Shown here in pieces: positions 4,043 through 12,149 of a stretch of 64,000 nucleotides of DNA. The notes beneath the pieces were generated by a model. The model was given only the letters and a program-made list of their open reading frames with translations, did not search any database and had not been told where the DNA came from. The DNA lies in the NCBI RefSeq assembly GCF_000219125.1, contig NZ_AFGF01000050.1, positions 1 to 64,000 of the forward strand. Direction: 5' to 3'. Origin of the DNA: Acetonema longum DSM 6540. GTDB taxonomy: Bacteria > Bacillota > Negativicutes > Sporomusales > Acetonemataceae. Within the stretch, counting starts at the first letter, position 1. Each line of letters begins with the position of its first letter. Both the position numbers and the translations under genes were made by a program.

Positions 4043-4774
4043 TTACTTGATAGGATCAGCTGGGGGCGAGCCAAACACCATAAAATCAACCACTAGGCTG
4101 CATATCTCACCCTGGGCGTCGATTCCCCAGTAGCAGGGATAATAACCGTCCCCGAAACCGGAGTGGAACATGACCACATTGTGCTTTTGATTTTCGGCGC
4201 CTGGCACTGCAAAGTTCAGCCAGTCTCCAATATCATGGGGATCGGACGGGTCTTTGGCGTTGGCCTTAAAGGCCGGATCAAAAAAATCATCATAGATGTT
4301 GTCCTGGGGATGAGAGGCATAGAATTCCCTGACAAACTGAATATAGGCTTCCTGGGCTCTGGAATCGCAAAAGCAGCCTAAGCCGGCGTCAACGGGAAAA
4401 CCGAAATAATCGTCCTCATGTTTTAAGTCATTGATATCATTTTCATCCGTCAGGGCCATTTCCCATTTTACTGGCAGTTGATCGGAGAATTTGACCATTA
4501 CGGCGGCATAGCGTTCTCCCATATCTTCCGTTGACGCCACACTGACGATCACATCGTAGTCGCCGGGTTTTACTGTCTTGATAAAGGGCAGGCTCACGCT
4601 TAAATAGACCAGCGGGTCAGCCGCGACAATTTTGCCGGAAGCAAGATGCAGTTTGCCCACGGGCAATTGTTCAACGGCGATTCCGTCTATTTGTTGAGCT
4701 GTAAAAAACTGCGTGTAGTCGATTTTGGCCAAAGGCCCTGCAATATTTTTTTTGCCAAATAGATCTCCAAACAT
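4043..4774 (-). CDS. DUF4241 domain protein
   Basis: 243 aa soluble protein matching DUF4241, a family without established function that is often seen near toxin-immunity loci. Features typical of the family are the central segment ending GFPVDAGLGCFCD and the C-terminal FHSGFGDGYYPCYWG followed by CSLVVDFMVF. There is no signal peptide or membrane segment. The ATG at 4774 has GGGAGG 7 nt upstream. It stands alone between two terminators, so it is probably a single-gene unit. No toxin gene is seen next to it. Confidence 0.7.
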   Translation of the reverse strand: MFGDLFGKKNIAGPLAKIDYTQFFTAQQIDGIAVEQLPVGKLHLASGKIVAADPLVYLSVSLPFIKTVKPGDYDVIVSVASTEDMGERYAAVMVKFSDQLPVKWEMALTDENDINDLKHEDDYFGFPVDAGLGCFCDSRAQEAYIQFVREFYASHPQDNIYDDFFDPAFKANAKDPSDPHDIGDWLNFAVPGAENQKHNVVMFHSGFGDGYYPCYWGIDAQGEICSLVVDFMVFGSPPADPIK

Positions 4775-5058: not shown

Positions 5059-5652
5059 TTATTGACCGTCACGGGAATCACAGGACAAAAAGCCGCCTTC
5101 GTTCAGCAGATATTGCATCCGCACATCATGTTTCTCTGCGGGAAGGCTGTCAACCAACTGAAACTGCCAGGCCAGCCCCAGCCGGATGCACTGCGGGGTC
5201 TGTGGTAAAAAGCGGTCATAATAGCCGGCCCCCATCCCCAGCCGGTTGCCGCTGCGGTCAAAGGCCACAGCCGGCACCACGACCAGGTCGATAGCGGCAG
5301 GCGATATGATTCGCGCTTTATCCGGGTCGGGCATTTTCAGCTCCAGCTTGCCGGTCACCAGATCATCCAGACCTGTGATCTCGGCCGCAGTCATTTCCCC
5401 GTATTTTTCCCCCAGCAGCGGTACACATACCCGCTTATGCCGCCCCAGAGCGTCCTGAATCATCTGCTCGGTTTGAGGTTCATCGGGCATGGCCAGATAG
5501 AACATCACCATTGCGCTCTTTTGATACACCGGCCATGAACAGAAAAAGGCAGTTATCTGTTCACTCCCTGCAGCCACTGTCTGGGCCGAGCGGCGACGGC
5601 GTTCTTCCCGCATGTACCGACGCAGCTGTTGCTTTGCTTCCTGCAACTCCAT
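5059..5652 (-). CDS. 5-formyltetrahydrofolate cyclo-ligase
   Basis: 197 aa, the usual size for the MTHFS/YgfA family, which converts 5-formyl-THF to 5,10-methenyl-THF with ATP. Family motifs: the N-terminal RRYMREERRRRS region, the substrate-side VVVPAVAFDRSGNRLG segment and the Mg-ATP loop GMGAGYYDRFL. It lies 27 nt behind fdhF in the same direction with a good GAGGTG ribosome site, so it is probably the last gene of the CO2-reduction operon. A likely role is returning 5-formyl-THF, a dead-end side product, to the folate pool used by the Wood-Ljungdahl methyl branch (inference). Confidence 0.9.
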   Translation of the reverse strand: MELQEAKQQLRRYMREERRRRSAQTVAAGSEQITAFFCSWPVYQKSAMVMFYLAMPDEPQTEQMIQDALGRHKRVCVPLLGEKYGEMTAAEITGLDDLVTGKLELKMPDPDKARIISPAAIDLVVVPAVAFDRSGNRLGMGAGYYDRFLPQTPQCIRLGLAWQFQLVDSLPAEKHDVRMQYLLNEGGFLSCDSRDGQ

Positions 5653-5679: not shown

Positions 5680-7809
5680 CTAACACAGCATTTGCTTTTT
5701 GATTTTGTCGTATTCCACGATAACATATTGCTCTGCCCAGCGCTGATCAGCGATCTTATCCACTCTGACGGCGCAATACTTGTACTCGGGGGTTTTGGAA
5801 ATGGGGTCCAGATGGTCAACGGTCAGCTCGTTGCAAGCGCCGACCCACCAGTGATAGGTCATGTACACGGCCCCGGCATTGATCCGCTCACTGGCCATGA
5901 CCCGGGCCATCACCTTCCCCCGCCGGGAGGATACCCATACCAGGTCCTGATCCTCCAGTGCAAGACGCCCGGCATCCTCCAGGCTCATTTGCACATAGCC
6001 GGGTTCATCGGCCAGCTGCTGCAAAGCGGCGCAGTTGCCGGTCATGGTCCGGGCGGAGTAGTGGCCGGCCTCCCTGACAGTAGACAGGATAAGGGGATAC
6101 TTTTCATCCGGCAGTTCCCGGGGCGGCCGCCATTCAGCGGCGAACAGCCTGCCTTTGCCGCTGGGGGTATCAAACCGGTTGCCCTTGTACAGATAAGGGG
6201 TTCCCGGATGATCTTCCGAAGGGCAGGGCCACTGGATGCTTCCCAGTTCATCCAGACGCTTGTAGCTGGCGCCAGCGAAGCTGGGACACAGATGCCGCAT
6301 CTCATCCCAGATCTCTTCGGTATTATTATACCTCATAGGATAGCCCATGGCAGTAGCTACTAAGGAAATAATCTCCCAGTCAGGTTTGACGTCGCCTTTA
6401 GGCTCTATAGCCTTGTGGAAATGCTGAAAACCCCGGTCAGCAGCAGAGTAGACTCCTTCATGTTCGCCCCATGAGGTAGCCGGCAAAATCACATGGGCGT
6501 GCAAAGCAGTCTTATTCATAAAGATATCCTGAACCACGACCAGGTCCATACTGTCAAGGGCTTCCCGCACGGCGGCGGCGTCCGGGTCACTCTGCACCGG
6601 ATCTTCGCCGAAAATATAGTAGGCCTTGATTTTACCCTCCCTGGCTAAATGGGGCACTTCCGTCAGATGATATCCCGGCTTGGCGGGAAGGTCCTCCACT
6701 CCCCAGGCTGCCGCGAATTTCTGACGGACCTTTTCGTCGGTGACCGGCTGGTAGCCTGGGAAGACGTTGGGCAACGCGCCATGATCGCAGGCTCCCTGCA
6801 CGTTATTTTGCCCCCGCACCGGACCGATTCCCACATTGGGCCGGCCAAAGTTACCGGTTAACAGCGGCAGGGCCGCCAGTCCCTTGACCACATCCACCGC
6901 CTGACCGTAATGGGTCACCCCCATGCCGTAGAGGATAAAGGCGCTGGAGGCCGCGGCATAGATGCGCATGGCCTTACGGATATCCCCGGCGGGGATGCCT
7001 GTAATTTGAGCCGCATACTCCGGTGTATATTTTGCTACCATGGTCCGGTATTCGTCAAAGCCTTCGGTGTATTTTTCGACATAGTCCTGATTATAGAGCC
7101 CTTCCTCGACGAGAACATGGCCAAAGGCATTGACCAGGGCCATATTGGTGCCGTTTTTGATGGGCAGCCACAGGTCGGCAATCCGCGCCGACTCGGTAAG
7201 CCGGGGATCCGTCACCACGATTTTGGCGCCTTTCTGCTTGGCGTTCACGATGCGGCGGGCCACAATCGGGTGAGAATCGGCGGCATTATAGCCAAAGACA
7301 AATACGCACTTGGTATCTTCTATTTCCGGAATCGAATTGGACATCGCCCCGTTTCCCAGTGTGTAGGCCAGACCGGCCACAGAGGGAGCGTGTCAGACAC
7401 GGGCGCAGTGATCAATATTATTGGTGCCGATCACTGCCCGAACAAATTTCTGCATGCAATAGTTGGCCTCATTGCCCGGCCCCCTGGCCGATCCAGTGGC
7501 CATAATCGCGTCAGGACCGTATTTTGCCTTGATTTCCTGCAGTTTGCCGGCCACGAAGCCAATGGCTTCCTGCCAGGATACCGGCACAAAGTCGCCATTT
7601 TTCTTCAGCAGAGGCTTAGTCAGCCGGGAAGTCAGCCGCCTGGTGTCATTCAAAAAATCCCAGCCGTAACGCCCTTTCAGGCACAAAGTGCTTTCATTTG
7701 TGCGGCCGGGAGCCGGTTCGGCGCCGGTGATCGCCCCGTTGTCCACTGTTAAGTAGATTTTACAGCCAGCCCCGCAATAGGGACAGACTGTCAGTACTTT
7801 GCTAGCCAT
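5680..7809 (-). CDS. fdhF: Selenocysteine formate dehydrogenase H-type, catalytic subunit
   Basis: 709 aa molybdopterin (Mo or W) formate dehydrogenase that interconverts CO2 and formate. An in-frame TGA at 7393-7395 is read as selenocysteine 139: the residues around it, CARV-U-HAPSVAGL, match the active-site Sec of FdhF, and the downstream frame stays open to the family's normal length. The N-terminus binds one 4Fe-4S cluster (C9, C12, C16, C43). The ATG at 7809 overlaps the upstream stop (TGATG) and has GGGAGG 8-9 nt before it. The gene sits directly behind three HycB-like ferredoxin subunits and an [FeFe] hydrogenase, the set expected for a hydrogen-dependent CO2 reductase. Automatic annotation would split it into two ORFs (7393-7809 and 5680-7380). 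Confidence 0.95.
7358..7395 (-). promoter_or_regulatory. Bacterial SECIS element in fdhF
   Basis: Directly after the UGA the mRNA can fold as GUGGCC-GGUCU-GGCC-UACAC. The apical GGUCU flanked by G/C pairs lies 18 nt after the UGA, as in the SelB-binding loop of E. coli fdhF (GCAGGUCUGC). This supports selenocysteine insertion rather than termination. Confidence 0.8.
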
Positions 7810-8420
7810 CAACTCAACCTCCCTGGCGCCGGTGCATGCTCCGCCGCCTGCGGCGGCAGGCGCGACAATTCGACTGCACAGGCCTTTCTTCTTTGCTTGG
7901 CATATAGAGATAATGTCTGGCCGGCGACGGGTTTAAATGCTTGGGTGGGACAGACGCCGGCGCAGGCCGGGCCTTCGGGCCGCTCCCGGCATAAATCGCA
8001 TTTATAGGCTACCAGTTTTTCTTTGGAACGGCCACCGGCGGCATCTACCACTTTCAGGCCCTCCTGCAGCACTGTTTCGCCCTGCATCACCTGGGGCGCC
8101 AGCTCCATGACGCCGAAGGGACAGGCCAACAGGCAGCTCTTGCAGCCAATACAGGCCTCTCCTTTGACCTGAATGCTGTGATGTTTATTAATGATCGCGC
8201 CTGTGGGGCAAACGTTGGCGCAGGGAGCGTCCTCACACTGGCGGCATTGGACCGGGACTGTGACGGCCGCAATTTTAACCACCTTGAGCCGCGGATGGAA
8301 GTCCTGGTCCAGGGTCCCGGCGATAAGGGCATCCTTAGCTGCATGGGCCAGGGCGCAGGCAATTTCACAGGTCCGGCAGCCGATACATTTATCGGGGTCA
8401 GCTACGAGAAAATCATTCAC
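7809..8420 (-). CDS. HycB-like 4x[4Fe-4S] ferredoxin subunit of CO2 reductase
   Basis: 203 aa polyferredoxin of the HycB/HydN type. Four cysteine clusters are visible: CIGCRTCEIAC, CRQCEDAPCANVC, CIGCKSCLLAC and CDLCRERPEGPACAGVC, each completed by a later CP. It should pass electrons between the hydrogenase and the formate dehydrogenase. The GTG at 8420 is preferred because GGGGG lies about 9 nt upstream; a TTG at 8474 has no ribosome site. It overlaps the start of fdhF by one base, suggesting translational coupling, so it is the most likely direct partner of FdhF. Confidence 0.85.
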   Translation of the reverse strand: MNDFLVADPDKCIGCRTCEIACALAHAAKDALIAGTLDQDFHPRLKVVKIAAVTVPVQCRQCEDAPCANVCPTGAIINKHHSIQVKGEACIGCKSCLLACPFGVMELAPQVMQGETVLQEGLKVVDAAGGRSKEKLVAYKCDLCRERPEGPACAGVCPTQAFKPVAGQTLSLYAKQRRKACAVELSRLPPQAAEHAPAPGRLS

Positions 8421-8455
8421 CCGAATTCCCCCTTTGTCGGTATTGGCAGGACTTG

Positions 8456-8995
8456 TTAACGTCTGCCGCGGCAAAGACCCCTAATGATCCGCGCGGCTTC
8501 CAGATTCTTTTCCCGCCTTTCTTGCAGCGGTTCAACCAAACGCAGCGCCTTTTCCGGGCAGGATTCCACACAAACCGGCCCCTGATCCCGTCCCCGGCAA
8601 AGGTCGCATTTGTCAGCAACCCAGCTCGGGCGCAGACTGCCTGCTCCTCCCTGCCTCTTCGGCGCCAACCGAATCGCACCGAAAGGACAGGCCAGCACAC
8701 AGTCCGGACAACTTTGGCAGAAAGCAGTATCCACCCGGACCCGGCCATCACAAAACCGTACGGCTCCCCGGGTGCAGCTCCCGGCACAGGGAGCGCCCTC
8801 GCACTGCCGGCATGATTCCGCTGTACCCCCGGCCTGCGTCCGCCTGATCCATATCTTGGGCAAAACCGGACCGGTTGCCGTACCGGCTGTCTTTCCCTCT
8901 GGATGATGCCAGGCATGGCAGGCCACTTCACAGGTCTTACAGCCGGTACACCGGCTCTGGTCAGCTATGATAAAGGACAGCAGATGCTGCTTCAT
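8456..8995 (-). CDS. HycB-like ferredoxin subunit (second copy)
   Basis: 179 aa protein of the same four-cluster family, with CTGCKTCEVAC, CRQCEGAPCAGSC, CQSCPDCVLAC and CDLCRGRDQGPVC. It is more diverged from the other two copies and has an insertion-poor middle. The ATG at 8995 with AGGGGG 7 nt upstream was chosen; an upstream ATG at 9034 overlaps the hydrogenase stop but is less well placed. In the known hydrogen-dependent CO2 reductases two such subunits bridge HydA2 and FdhF and form the filament; here three copies are present. Confidence 0.8.
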   Translation of the reverse strand: MKQHLLSFIIADQSRCTGCKTCEVACHAWHHPEGKTAGTATGPVLPKIWIRRTQAGGTAESCRQCEGAPCAGSCTRGAVRFCDGRVRVDTAFCQSCPDCVLACPFGAIRLAPKRQGGAGSLRPSWVADKCDLCRGRDQGPVCVESCPEKALRLVEPLQERREKNLEAARIIRGLCRGRR

Positions 8996-9030
8996 ACTTT
9001 GCCCCCTAAGCTCCGCACCTAGATTGTCGC

Positions 9031-10416
9031 TCATTCCTCCTGGCGCCGGGACGTATAATGGGTATGTAACAGATGATGCGATTCTGAACCCAGGGGCTTT
9101 CCCAGGAAGGCTTCATATAACTTTTGAATTTCAGGGTTGTCATGGGATTTTCTGAGAGATAACGCCGCATCGTGGTTATAAATGCTGCCCTTCCGGCCGG
9201 CGTAGGCAGCAGGCTTGTCGCCCGGGATCAGTACCTTGGGTTGGCCGCCGCCGCTGACACAGCCGACGGGACAAGTCATAACCTCTATGAAATGGAAGTC
9301 CGCCTTGCCGGCCTTGACCTGTTCCAAAAGTTCCCGGACATGTTTTAGTCCGGCCACAACGACTACTTTCAGTTCCAAGTCCCCCAGCTTCACAGCCGCT
9401 TTTCTGACTCCTTCCCCGCCGCGGACGGTTGTAAAATCCAGTTCAGGCAAGGACTGACCCGTGACCCATTCGTAAGCGGTCCTCAAGGCAGCTTCCATGA
9501 CGCCGCCGGTAACGCCGAAAATGGCGCCGGCGCCGGTATAAGTCCCTAAGGGCTTATCGAATTCGGCTTCCGTCAACTTGTCAAAATCAATGCCGGCATC
9601 CTTCAACAGCTGGGCCAATTCCCGGGTGGTCAGTACGGCATCCACGTCATGGTAACCGCTAGCCGCCATTTCCGGCCGTTCACACTCAAATTTTTTACAG
9701 GTACAGGGCATCACCGACAGGCTGTAGACCCTGGCCGGCTCCACTTCGTCCAGCTTGGCGCCGAAGGTTTTAAACAGGGCCCCCGCCATCTGCTGCGGCG
9801 ACTTGCAGCTGGAGAGATGGGGAATGAGTTCGGGATAGGTATCTTCCACATATTTCACCCAGGCAGGACAGCAGGAGGTAAACATGGGCATTCTGCCGCC
9901 CTGAGTCAGCCGCTGCACCAGTTCGGAGCTCTCTTCCATGATTGTCAGGTCAGCCGCAAAGTTTGTGTCATAAATCCGGTCAAAACCGGCTGTTTTTAAG
10001 GCCGCCGCCATTTTACCGGGAGTCAGGCTGCCCAGAGGCAGGCCGAACTCTTCGGCAATAGCCACCCGCACTGCCGGCGCGCACTGAACGATCTTAAACA
10101 GGCCGGGATCAGCCAGAGCCGCTTTCACCCGGGGCGCATCCCCCCGGTTATAGGCCGCAAATAAGGGTTCCCGCACTGATGGCAGCAACCCGCGTTCGGC
10201 CAGTTTTTGCTCCCGGGGCGCAATCTCTTCGTCAAAAATAGAAGCATAAGCGCTGCAGATCTGAACGCACTGGCCACAGACAATACATCGTTCCCGGCTG
10301 ATCGTATGGGGCTGGCCTTTTTCGCCTTCAATGGCATCAACCGGACAGACCTGGACACAACGCCGGCAGCCGGTACAAAGTTCCCGGTCAATGTGAATGA
10401 ATGGGACTACCGCCAT
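9031..10416 (-). CDS. hydA2: [FeFe] hydrogenase subunit of hydrogen-dependent CO2 reductase
   Basis: 461 aa monomeric-type [FeFe] hydrogenase. Two N-terminal 4Fe-4S clusters (C14/17/20/24 and C44/47/50/54) precede the H-cluster domain. H-cluster motifs are TSCCPAW (180-186), MPCTCKKFE (236-244) and TCPVGCVSGGGQP (from 381; C382 and C386). The last motif has PV where most hydrogenases have PG. There is no NAD- or flavin-binding region, so electrons must leave through the adjacent HycB-like proteins. The short length and neighbours match HydA2 of the Acetobacterium CO2 reductase. It starts 4 nt after the preceding ferredoxin gene. Confidence 0.9.
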   Translation of the reverse strand: MAVVPFIHIDRELCTGCRRCVQVCPVDAIEGEKGQPHTISRERCIVCGQCVQICSAYASIFDEEIAPREQKLAERGLLPSVREPLFAAYNRGDAPRVKAALADPGLFKIVQCAPAVRVAIAEEFGLPLGSLTPGKMAAALKTAGFDRIYDTNFAADLTIMEESSELVQRLTQGGRMPMFTSCCPAWVKYVEDTYPELIPHLSSCKSPQQMAGALFKTFGAKLDEVEPARVYSLSVMPCTCKKFECERPEMAASGYHDVDAVLTTRELAQLLKDAGIDFDKLTEAEFDKPLGTYTGAGAIFGVTGGVMEAALRTAYEWVTGQSLPELDFTTVRGGEGVRKAAVKLGDLELKVVVVAGLKHVRELLEQVKAGKADFHFIEVMTCPVGCVSGGGQPKVLIPGDKPAAYAGRKGSIYNHDAALSLRKSHDNPEIQKLYEAFLGKPLGSESHHLLHTHYTSRRQEE

Positions 10417-10420
10417 ATTG

Positions 10421-11011
10421 TCAGCCTCCCATAAAACTTTTCATGGAATGCAGCAGATTGAGAGCCGCTTCCCGGTTGCGCCTTTTTTGGTCTTTTGGCG
10501 GATAAATCACCGTCAGAGCCTTCTCCGGACAGGCTTCCACGCAAGCCAGCCCGCCGTCGCGATCATGGCACAGGTCGCATTTATTGGCCACAATCCATTC
10601 TTTGTCCCGAAGACCGGCCTGACTTTCCACCTTCAGGGCACTCTGACTGACCGGCTTGCCGCCGCGATACACAGGCACCAGATCAATCGCCCCAAAGGGG
10701 CAAGCCAGCATGCAGGTCTTGCAGCCGATACAGGTATCGGCGTCGATCAGAATGGTGTGATGGGTCTGAGTAATCGCCGCCACCGGACAGGCATTGGCGC
10801 AGGGAGCATCTTCACAGTGACGGCATTGGACCGGCACGGTCACTTCCGGTGTCTTAACCAGGTACAATCTGGGAATGACCGGCGCCGTCAGCGTTCCGAC
10901 CGTGGCCCCCGATTGATCGGAATGAGCTACCGAGCAGGCTAGCTCGCAAACCCGGCAGCCGATACATTTTGCAGGATCAGCCGTGACAAACGCATTTAAT
11001 TTGTTGTCCAC
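10421..11011 (-). CDS. HycB-like ferredoxin subunit (first gene of CO2 reductase operon)
   Basis: 196 aa four-cluster ferredoxin: CIGCRVCELAC, CRHCEDAPCANAC, CIGCKTCMLAC and CDLCHDRDGGLACVEAC. It resembles the copy at 7809-8420 more than the one at 8456-8995. The GTG at 11011 was chosen because AGGGGAGG lies 7 nt upstream; an ATG at 11029 lacks a ribosome site. By position next to the hydrogenase it is the likely HydA2-side electron carrier. A strong hairpin precedes it at 11064-11118. Confidence 0.85.
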   Translation of the reverse strand: MDNKLNAFVTADPAKCIGCRVCELACSVAHSDQSGATVGTLTAPVIPRLYLVKTPEVTVPVQCRHCEDAPCANACPVAAITQTHHTILIDADTCIGCKTCMLACPFGAIDLVPVYRGGKPVSQSALKVESQAGLRDKEWIVANKCDLCHDRDGGLACVEACPEKALTVIYPPKDQKRRNREAALNLLHSMKSFMGG

Positions 11012-11126: not shown

Positions 11127-11318
11127 TTACTCGTTTCCTTCGAGAATAATCCGATGATCCACCAGCAGTAACTCTTTAATTTTACCTTTAACGATTTTCT
11201 GCTGGCCGAAAATATTCCGCAAATGCACTTCTGTTCCGGTAGGAACCACATAAAGCACATCTTCCATGATCAATTTTTCTTTGCCGTTTTCATACAGATA
11301 GGCGTTGGATTCGCACAT
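11127..11318 (-). CDS. cooT: CooT-family nickel-binding protein
   Basis: 63 aa. It begins MCESNAYL, keeping the Cys2 that binds nickel in the CooT family, and ends in the small beta-barrel sequence typical of the family. CooT takes part in nickel supply to CO dehydrogenase. Its place between acsE and the CO2 reductase genes, in an operon with two CooC ATPases, agrees with a role in loading Ni into AcsA or AcsB. The ATG at 11318 has GGAAGGA upstream. It is 33 nt after acsE. Confidence 0.85.
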   Translation of the reverse strand: MCESNAYLYENGKEKLIMEDVLYVVPTGTEVHLRNIFGQQKIVKGKIKELLLVDHRIILEGNE

Positions 11319-11351: not shown

Positions 11352-12149
11352 TCAATGAGCGGAATGCTGCCGGAATACCTTTTGGTAGGAATCGCAGTAG
11401 ATGTCTTTATTGAGGATCAGCCGGGCCGTGGCAATAGCATCCACCATCGGGTCATCCATCACGTCCATAATGGCCGAATCCAGACCGGCGCCCATGGCCA
11501 TAACGGCAAAAGTACGGTTGATCAGCGGGCGATGAGGGGTTTTCTGGGATACATTGCTCAGACCGATGGTGGTCCGAGGCGCCGGATTGGACAGGGTTTT
11601 AATCTGGCGCAGGGTCTCCAGGACCTCAATAGCATGTTCCTGGCCTACGTTGACCGGCAGACAGATGGGGTCCAGGTAGAGGTCTTCAAAAGGCAGACCG
11701 TAGGCATCGGCATTGGCCACCAGTTCCATGGCAAAGGCTGTCCGGTCTTCGGCGCTTTTAGGCACGCCCTTGTTGGTCATGCACAAGCCGATGAGAGCGG
11801 CCTTATGTTCCACCGCCAGCGGGAACAGCCGGTCGATTTCCGCCTGTTCGCATTTGCAGGAGTTGATCATGCCCGGTCGCTTGAGGACTTTCAAGGCGGC
11901 TTCAATGGCGTCAAAGTTAGTGCAGTCCAGACACAGGGGCAGGTCAGTGACTTCCTGGACCGCCTGGGCCATCCAGGGCAGGGTTTTCACCTGATCTTCA
12001 GCATTAGGCCCGGTGTTCACATCCAGGTAGTGGGCCCCCGCCGCCTCCTGTTTTTGGGCCCATTCCTGCAGCGGTTTAGGATCCCATTCGATTACGGCTT
12101 TGCCAATATCCTTAAACATCCCGTTAATTCTCTCACCAATTAGGATCAT
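11352..12149 (-). CDS. acsE: Methyl-THF:corrinoid iron-sulfur protein methyltransferase
   Basis: 265 aa TIM-barrel methyltransferase that moves the methyl group from 5-methyl-THF to the cobalt of the corrinoid iron-sulfur protein. Family features are the N-terminal MILIGERING, the pterin-site segments LDVNTGP and CLDCTNFD, and INSCK. The length matches Moorella AcsE (262 aa). It has a strong GGAGGAG ribosome site, lies just after acsD and before cooT, and should be cotranscribed with the whole acs cluster. Confidence 0.95.
   Translation of the reverse strand: MILIGERINGMFKDIGKAVIEWDPKPLQEWAQKQEAAGAHYLDVNTGPNAEDQVKTLPWMAQAVQEVTDLPLCLDCTNFDAIEAALKVLKRPGMINSCKCEQAEIDRLFPLAVEHKAALIGLCMTNKGVPKSAEDRTAFAMELVANADAYGLPFEDLYLDPICLPVNVGQEHAIEVLETLRQIKTLSNPAPRTTIGLSNVSQKTPHRPLINRTFAVMAMGAGLDSAIMDVMDDPMVDAIATARLILNKDIYCDSYQKVFRQHSAH

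Follow-up and report, generated by a model that had tools for sequence, protein, structure and literature searches.

A third, divergent HycB in an HDCR-type operon of Acetonema longum and its membrane-linked relatives

What is a third HycB doing in an operon for a hydrogen-dependent CO2 reductase (HDCR)? Among about 60 hydA2 loci surveyed, nearly all have two HycBs beside hydA2. The Acetonema longum assembly (4.32 Mb, 295 contigs) holds a locus with three, in the gene order hycB-hydA2-hycB-hycB-fdhF that a sequence-only reading had described behind the acs cluster of the window (the whole 64,000-nucleotide stretch analysed). ORF calls and homology confirm all five genes, on the minus strand after acsE and cooT, transcribed in the order hycBa-hydA2-hycBb-hycBc-fdhF. 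The genes are separated by anything from a few bases to 35, and each has an SD-like sequence on its 5' side. The features are as follows:

11352-12149: acsE, upstream of cooT and the operon
11127..11318, minus strand: cooT, CODH accessory protein (Pfam PF10133, 87.9 bits), between acsE and hycBa
10421..11011, minus strand: hycBa, HycB4-type polyferredoxin, 196 aa, GTG start at 11011
9031..10416, minus strand: hydA2, [FeFe]-hydrogenase, FdhF-linked, group A4 type
8456..8995, minus strand: hycBb, the third, divergent HycB
7809..8420, minus strand: hycBc, HycB3-side polyferredoxin, probable FdhF partner
5680..7809, minus strand: fdhF, selenocysteine-containing formate dehydrogenase catalytic subunit, 709 aa
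7393..7395, minus strand: UGA selenocysteine codon (residue 140 of the P0001 translation); this in-frame TGA coincides with the active-site selenocysteine of FdhH
7345..7392, minus strand: candidate bacterial SECIS, GGUCU apical loop, fold -17.5 kcal/mol
5059..5652, minus strand: putative 5-formyltetrahydrofolate cyclo-ligase gene, an ORF with its own SD, identity from sequence motifs

The putative cyclo-ligase gene starts 27 bp past fdhF; possibly it is the last gene of the operon, transcribed with the others and linked in function to the one-carbon pathway. A gene for a DUF4241 protein (4043-4774; Pfam PF14025, 202 bits) lies downstream on the same strand. The operon encodes no membrane subunits and no hydrogenase large or small subunits of the Hyc/Hyf type. 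Between cooT and gene 5059-5652 there are no genes for NAD(P)- or flavin-binding (bifurcating, diaphorase) subunits, in contrast to the Fdh-coupled, electron-bifurcating Hyt type of C. autoethanogenum, which has NAD(P)-binding diaphorase subunits.

The best solved relatives of HydA2 and the HycBs come from the T. kivui HDCR (PDB 7QV7). HydA2 matches its HydA2 over the full length (7qv7_D; 717 bits, 9e-215, 454/461 residues) and contains two N-terminal [4Fe4S] motifs, an H-cluster domain, and a small-subunit domain (Pfam Fe_hyd_lg_C and Fe_hyd_SSU). HycBa is closest to HycB4 (7qv7_B; 231 bits, 1.2e-67, versus 148 bits for HycB3), and in a HycB tree built on full-length sequences it groups with T. 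kivui HycB4 among the upstream HycBs. HycBc is nearly balanced in pairwise comparison (HycB4, 158 bits; HycB3, about 137-138 bits); in the tree it falls with T. kivui HycB3 inside the superclade of downstream HycBs (support 87/80), forming a trio (100/100) with its counterparts in the operons of Anaerospora hongkongensis and a Solidesulfovibrio MAG. HycB4-type and HycB3-type polyferredoxins, with four [4Fe4S] motifs each, are both present in the operon.

FdhF matches TIGR01591 (919 bits, cut-off 666) and is nearer to E. coli FdhH (1aa6; 1044 bits; 62% identity to E. coli FdhF) than to T. kivui FdhF (749 bits). Its branch is of the E. coli FdhH type, common to HDCR-type clusters of Pelosinus, Paenibacillus, and Peptostreptococcaceae; the T. 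kivui protein, of the Cys type, falls in another. The genome also encodes a tRNA-Sec (contig C40; 64 bits, cut-off 47 bits). The fold energy of the candidate SECIS is by itself not significant (z -0.73). However, the 35 bases 3' of the TGA, GGUCU apical loop included, are near-identical in Anaerospora and the Solidesulfovibrio MAG, and the element is accepted as a candidate because of this DNA conservation across three distant genomes, fold energy alone being insufficient. The genome holds no second FdhF of this type: the next-best paralogue is only 36% identical, carries a twin-arginine-type leader, and lies beside cytochrome genes. This makes the operon's FdhF the only candidate of its type for the formate step of the pathway. 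(On contig C172, locus L127, a homologue of Fdh/nitrate reductase that has a twin-arginine-type leader is encoded next to genes for a multihaem cytochrome and cytochrome assembly.)

The HydA2 match, together with the single FdhF of its type in the genome, makes HDCR function very likely, and we have little doubt that the operon is of the HDCR type, as the sequence-only reading had proposed. The complex would serve the methyl branch of the Wood-Ljungdahl pathway as a hydrogen-dependent CO2 reductase/formate hydrogenlyase: HydA2 would split H2, a wire of HycB polyferredoxins would carry the electrons, and the selenocysteine FdhF would reduce CO2 to formate, reversibly. Relatives of this design are known. 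The Clostridium beijerinckii Fdh/Hyd (FdhF/HydA/HycB1/B2) is likewise a soluble complex of a group A4 [FeFe]-hydrogenase and a formate dehydrogenase, with both HDCR and formate hydrogenlyase activity (PMC12905484), although it has two HycBs and its genes lie in two operons. E. coli formate hydrogenlyase-1 (FdhF-HycBCDEFG) shares the HycB-type wire and the reversible formate/H2 chemistry, but is a membrane complex with a [NiFe] hydrogenase and one HycB, whereas the A. longum operon encodes an [FeFe] enzyme and no membrane subunits.

Does a third HycB gene then mean a new function? The reading had reasoned so, on the premise that known HDCRs use two HycBs. That premise fails. The T. kivui HDCR, which shares HydA2, HycB4- and HycB3-type subunits, and FdhF with that of A. 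longum and differs in having two HycB genes and no HycBb orthologue, nevertheless assembles three iron-sulfur subunits into each hexameric repeat (PMC12905484). The A. woodii cluster encodes HycB1/B2/B3 (PMC8390402), and its HDCR accepts reduced ferredoxin with HycB2 and HycB3 as linking subunits (PMC6288185). Neither ferredoxin entry nor filaments therefore need a third gene, and neither gene count nor ferredoxin use makes the operon special. By its published description, the A. woodii cluster (fdhF1/fdhF2, hycB1/B2/B3, fdhD, hydA2) resembles that of A. longum in its three HycB genes, HydA2, and an available selenocysteine FdhF; the difference is that its extra HycB has been attributed to another isogene of FdhF, hycB1 going with fdhF1, whereas A. 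longum has one fdhF and an extra HycB of a different branch. A partnership of this kind with a second FdhF was considered for HycBb and rejected, given that the genome has only one FdhF of this type, and given the position of HycBb on the HycB4 side.

The same comparison bears on the suggestion that HycBb is a separate entry port for electrons from ferredoxin or CO. HycBb is a four-cluster polyferredoxin, and an alternative ferredoxin entry does exist in the A. woodii HDCR; there, however, HycB2 and HycB3 serve as the linking subunits (PMC6288185). The HycBb orthologues have hyf genes as neighbours and no linked gene for ferredoxin or CODH, and the adjacency to acs and cooT is common to the whole operon, not to HycBb alone. 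A dedicated port is very unlikely, and no tie of the third HycB to CO was found; the tie that was found is to Hyf, a complex-I-like membrane module, in the Anaerospora and Solidesulfovibrio operons.

The three iron-sulfur subunits of the T. kivui repeat are reportedly one HycB3 and two HycB4. Since a known repeat offers three iron-sulfur positions, three HycB genes could fill positions that already exist. HycBc, being of the HycB3 type, would be expected to sit at FdhF, and HycBa, of the HycB4 type, at HydA2. HycBb would be a further, specialised subunit on the HycB4 side and would most likely take one of the two HycB4 positions in the hexameric repeat. The result would be a hetero-HycB backbone, in which one HydA2 site is held by HycBa and the other by HycBb.

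The sequence of HycBb fits this placement in part. Its best solved relative is T. kivui HycB4 (132 bits), and its predicted model aligns with 7qv7_B through residue 175 (VIA-align Z 8.2, rmsd 6.7, 153 residues). The sequence match carries the HycB4 assignment, because other families in the fold-comparison list score only about 1 Z lower. All 16 cluster cysteines are kept and invariant in the alignment. The model is moderate overall (pLDDT 69.7, loops under 50), but predicts a C-terminal helix of 22 residues (156-177) at a pLDDT of about 90. HDCR filaments form through the C-terminal helices of HycB, and a HycB4-like subunit with such a long predicted helix might alter filament assembly. As the reading had noted, HycBb is the most divergent HycB, with 33-43% identity to the other HycBs of the A. 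longum and Anaerospora operons, and no close HycB is found elsewhere in the A. longum genome. Judged by identity to the Anaerospora orthologues (50%, where the two remaining HycBs reach 60% and 63% and the four other proteins as a group span 60-79%), it is the fastest-evolving of the five operon proteins. Relative to HycBa, it has also lost 14 residues from the surface loop that precedes the fourth cysteine motif and follows the third. This loss and the fast divergence mean that HycBb may not bind HydA2 as HycB4 does. Overall, a place for HycBb at a HycB4 position is rated at slightly better than even.

Where did HycBb come from? In the HycB tree it is a rare branch on the HycB4 side. No further HycBb besides that of A. 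longum was found among 398 Bacillota genomes (E <= 1e-38); this even sample does not include Anaerospora, so the search speaks to the rarity of HycBb and not to its absence. Among Sporomusales hydA2 loci, the exception with a HycBb-like gene is that of Anaerospora hongkongensis (NZ_SLUI01000005.1; G005:C5:214001-234000, 3594-18000 of L167), whose operon reads focA-hycBa-hydA2-hycBb-hyfBCEFGI-fdhD-hycBc-fdhF. The same five genes are collinear with those of A. longum, with the selenocysteine FdhF and the same SECIS region; the difference is the addition of focA and the insertion of seven genes, the six-gene Hyf module and fdhD, between hycBb and hycBc. The Solidesulfovibrio MAG has an expanded version: focA-mobA-hycBa-hydA2-hycBb-hyfBCEFGI-fdhD-fdhF2-hycB-hycBc-fdhF. 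In 149 Desulfovibrionaceae genomes HydA2 occurs in five, and four of the five have ordinary two-HycB operons.

HycBb matches the Anaerospora gene between hydA2 and hyfB at 178 bits and groups with it in the HycB tree (99/95). Constraining the Solidesulfovibrio HycBb to join this pair gives a higher likelihood and is not rejected (p-AU 0.64). The HydA2 and FdhF trees also join A. longum with Anaerospora and Solidesulfovibrio; inner support is weak, and A. longum and Anaerospora appear as sisters at only 0.74 in the HydA2 tree. It is highly probable that HycBb is the orthologue of the Hyf-linked HycB gene, and common descent of the operon best accounts for the shared gene order and the trees. 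(Chance or artefact as the cause of the third HycB is ruled out by the orthologous operons in distant genomes.)

The operons of Anaerospora and Solidesulfovibrio (L167 and L189) join an HDCR, consisting of HydA2, HycBs, and a selenocysteine FdhF, to a six-gene Hyf module, plus focA and fdhD; putatively, they encode an energy-coupled, [FeFe]-based formate hydrogenlyase/CO2 reductase. No described function was found for the Anaerospora operon and, in the open-licence literature, no description of an [FeFe]-hydrogenase/Hyf/Fdh complex. Two things set the A. longum operon apart, the lineage of HycBb and the link of that lineage to the Hyf arm, and the published HDCR survey text mentions neither; the operon itself is a modest variant, and its arm-bearing relatives are the more striking. 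In other Sporomusales (L115/G017, L164/G013, L165/G014), a [NiFe]-less Hyf module adjoins hydA2 and the HycB genes are truncated, missing, or rearranged; arrangements include focA-hydA2-hyf and hyf-fdhF-hycB-hydA2-hycB.

The hydA2-linked HyfG proteins, the large subunits of the module, have lost the first cysteine of the C-terminal CxxC motif (ELSYAC). Those of Anaerospora and Sporomusa-like genomes have also lost the first cysteine of the N-terminal motif (RISGVC), and thereby two [NiFe] ligands; the N-terminal motif of the Solidesulfovibrio MAG protein was not recovered by the motif pattern. With these ligands lost, hydA2-linked HyfG probably binds no [NiFe] centre. A Hyf module of this type is absent from the A. 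longum genome, in which only two HyfG homologues were found: that of a stand-alone Hyf on contig C66, which keeps all four cysteines (RICGAC/ELCYAC), and a NuoCD-like protein on C5. The C66 hyfBCEFGI operon (L126 495-8180) has ELC, not DPC, at the C-terminal HyfG motif, and its small subunit also carries two ferredoxin motifs. A. longum is listed as Rnf-negative and Ech-positive (PMC8578096), which would suit this Hyf.

Might HycBb nevertheless dock the HDCR onto a complex-I-like membrane complex, possibly the C66 Hyf, and couple H2/formate/CO2 turnover to ion transport? In Anaerospora and Solidesulfovibrio the gene for its orthologue is flanked by hydA2 and hyfB, and E. coli HycB joins FdhF to HycF/HycG/HycE in formate hydrogenlyase (PMC9474812). 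Moreover, the C66 operon is complete and has no HycB or FdhF gene near it. However, the C66 Hyf differs in type from the hydA2-linked Hyf, and its genes are unlinked to hycBb. Of 28 Sporomusales genomes, 25 have a HyfG match; most of these matches are of the C66 type, and many of the genomes lack hydA2, so that this Hyf must work there without HycBb. Such docking is rated as unlikely. A bolder version would make the HDCR a modular enzyme able to carry an ion-pumping, complex-I-like arm without a [NiFe] site, with HycBb a coupling subunit that still docks it reversibly onto a separately encoded Hyf, so that the step from CO2 to formate would be energised and membrane-linked; this seems improbable.

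The missing module also invites the opposite view, that HycBb is left over from a membrane-linked operon since lost and, although still expressed, can be dispensed with. The module presumed to be its partner is missing and none of the five proteins has diverged further, yet the 16 cluster cysteines, a strong SD, a GC3 and codon composition like those of its operon neighbours, and the confidently predicted C-terminal helix are all kept. We consider this view improbable.

The best explanation, favoured by a modest degree as a whole, is that of an HDCR with HycBb at one HycB4 position, the third HycB having been inherited from a membrane-linked relative whose arm A. longum no longer has. Loss of the arm in the A. 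longum lineage is the simplest reading, though not a proven one, the alternative being independent gain in the other two. Because the third HycB matches a gene that sits in closely similar, arm-bearing operons of two distant bacteria, the A. longum operon looks like a pump-less version of its membrane-linked relative.

Published work describes the HDCR as a soluble enzyme without energetic coupling (PMC6288185). HDCR operons with the HycBb subtype form a branch which, in Anaerospora and the Solidesulfovibrio MAG, also carries the genes of a complex-I-like membrane module whose [NiFe] site is degraded. Were this module an ion pump, the reduction of CO2 with H2, the first step of acetogenesis and an energetically difficult one, would be tied to membrane energy. 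The arm-less operon of A. longum and the arm-bearing operon of Anaerospora form a natural comparison for the contributions of the third HycB and of the membrane arm.
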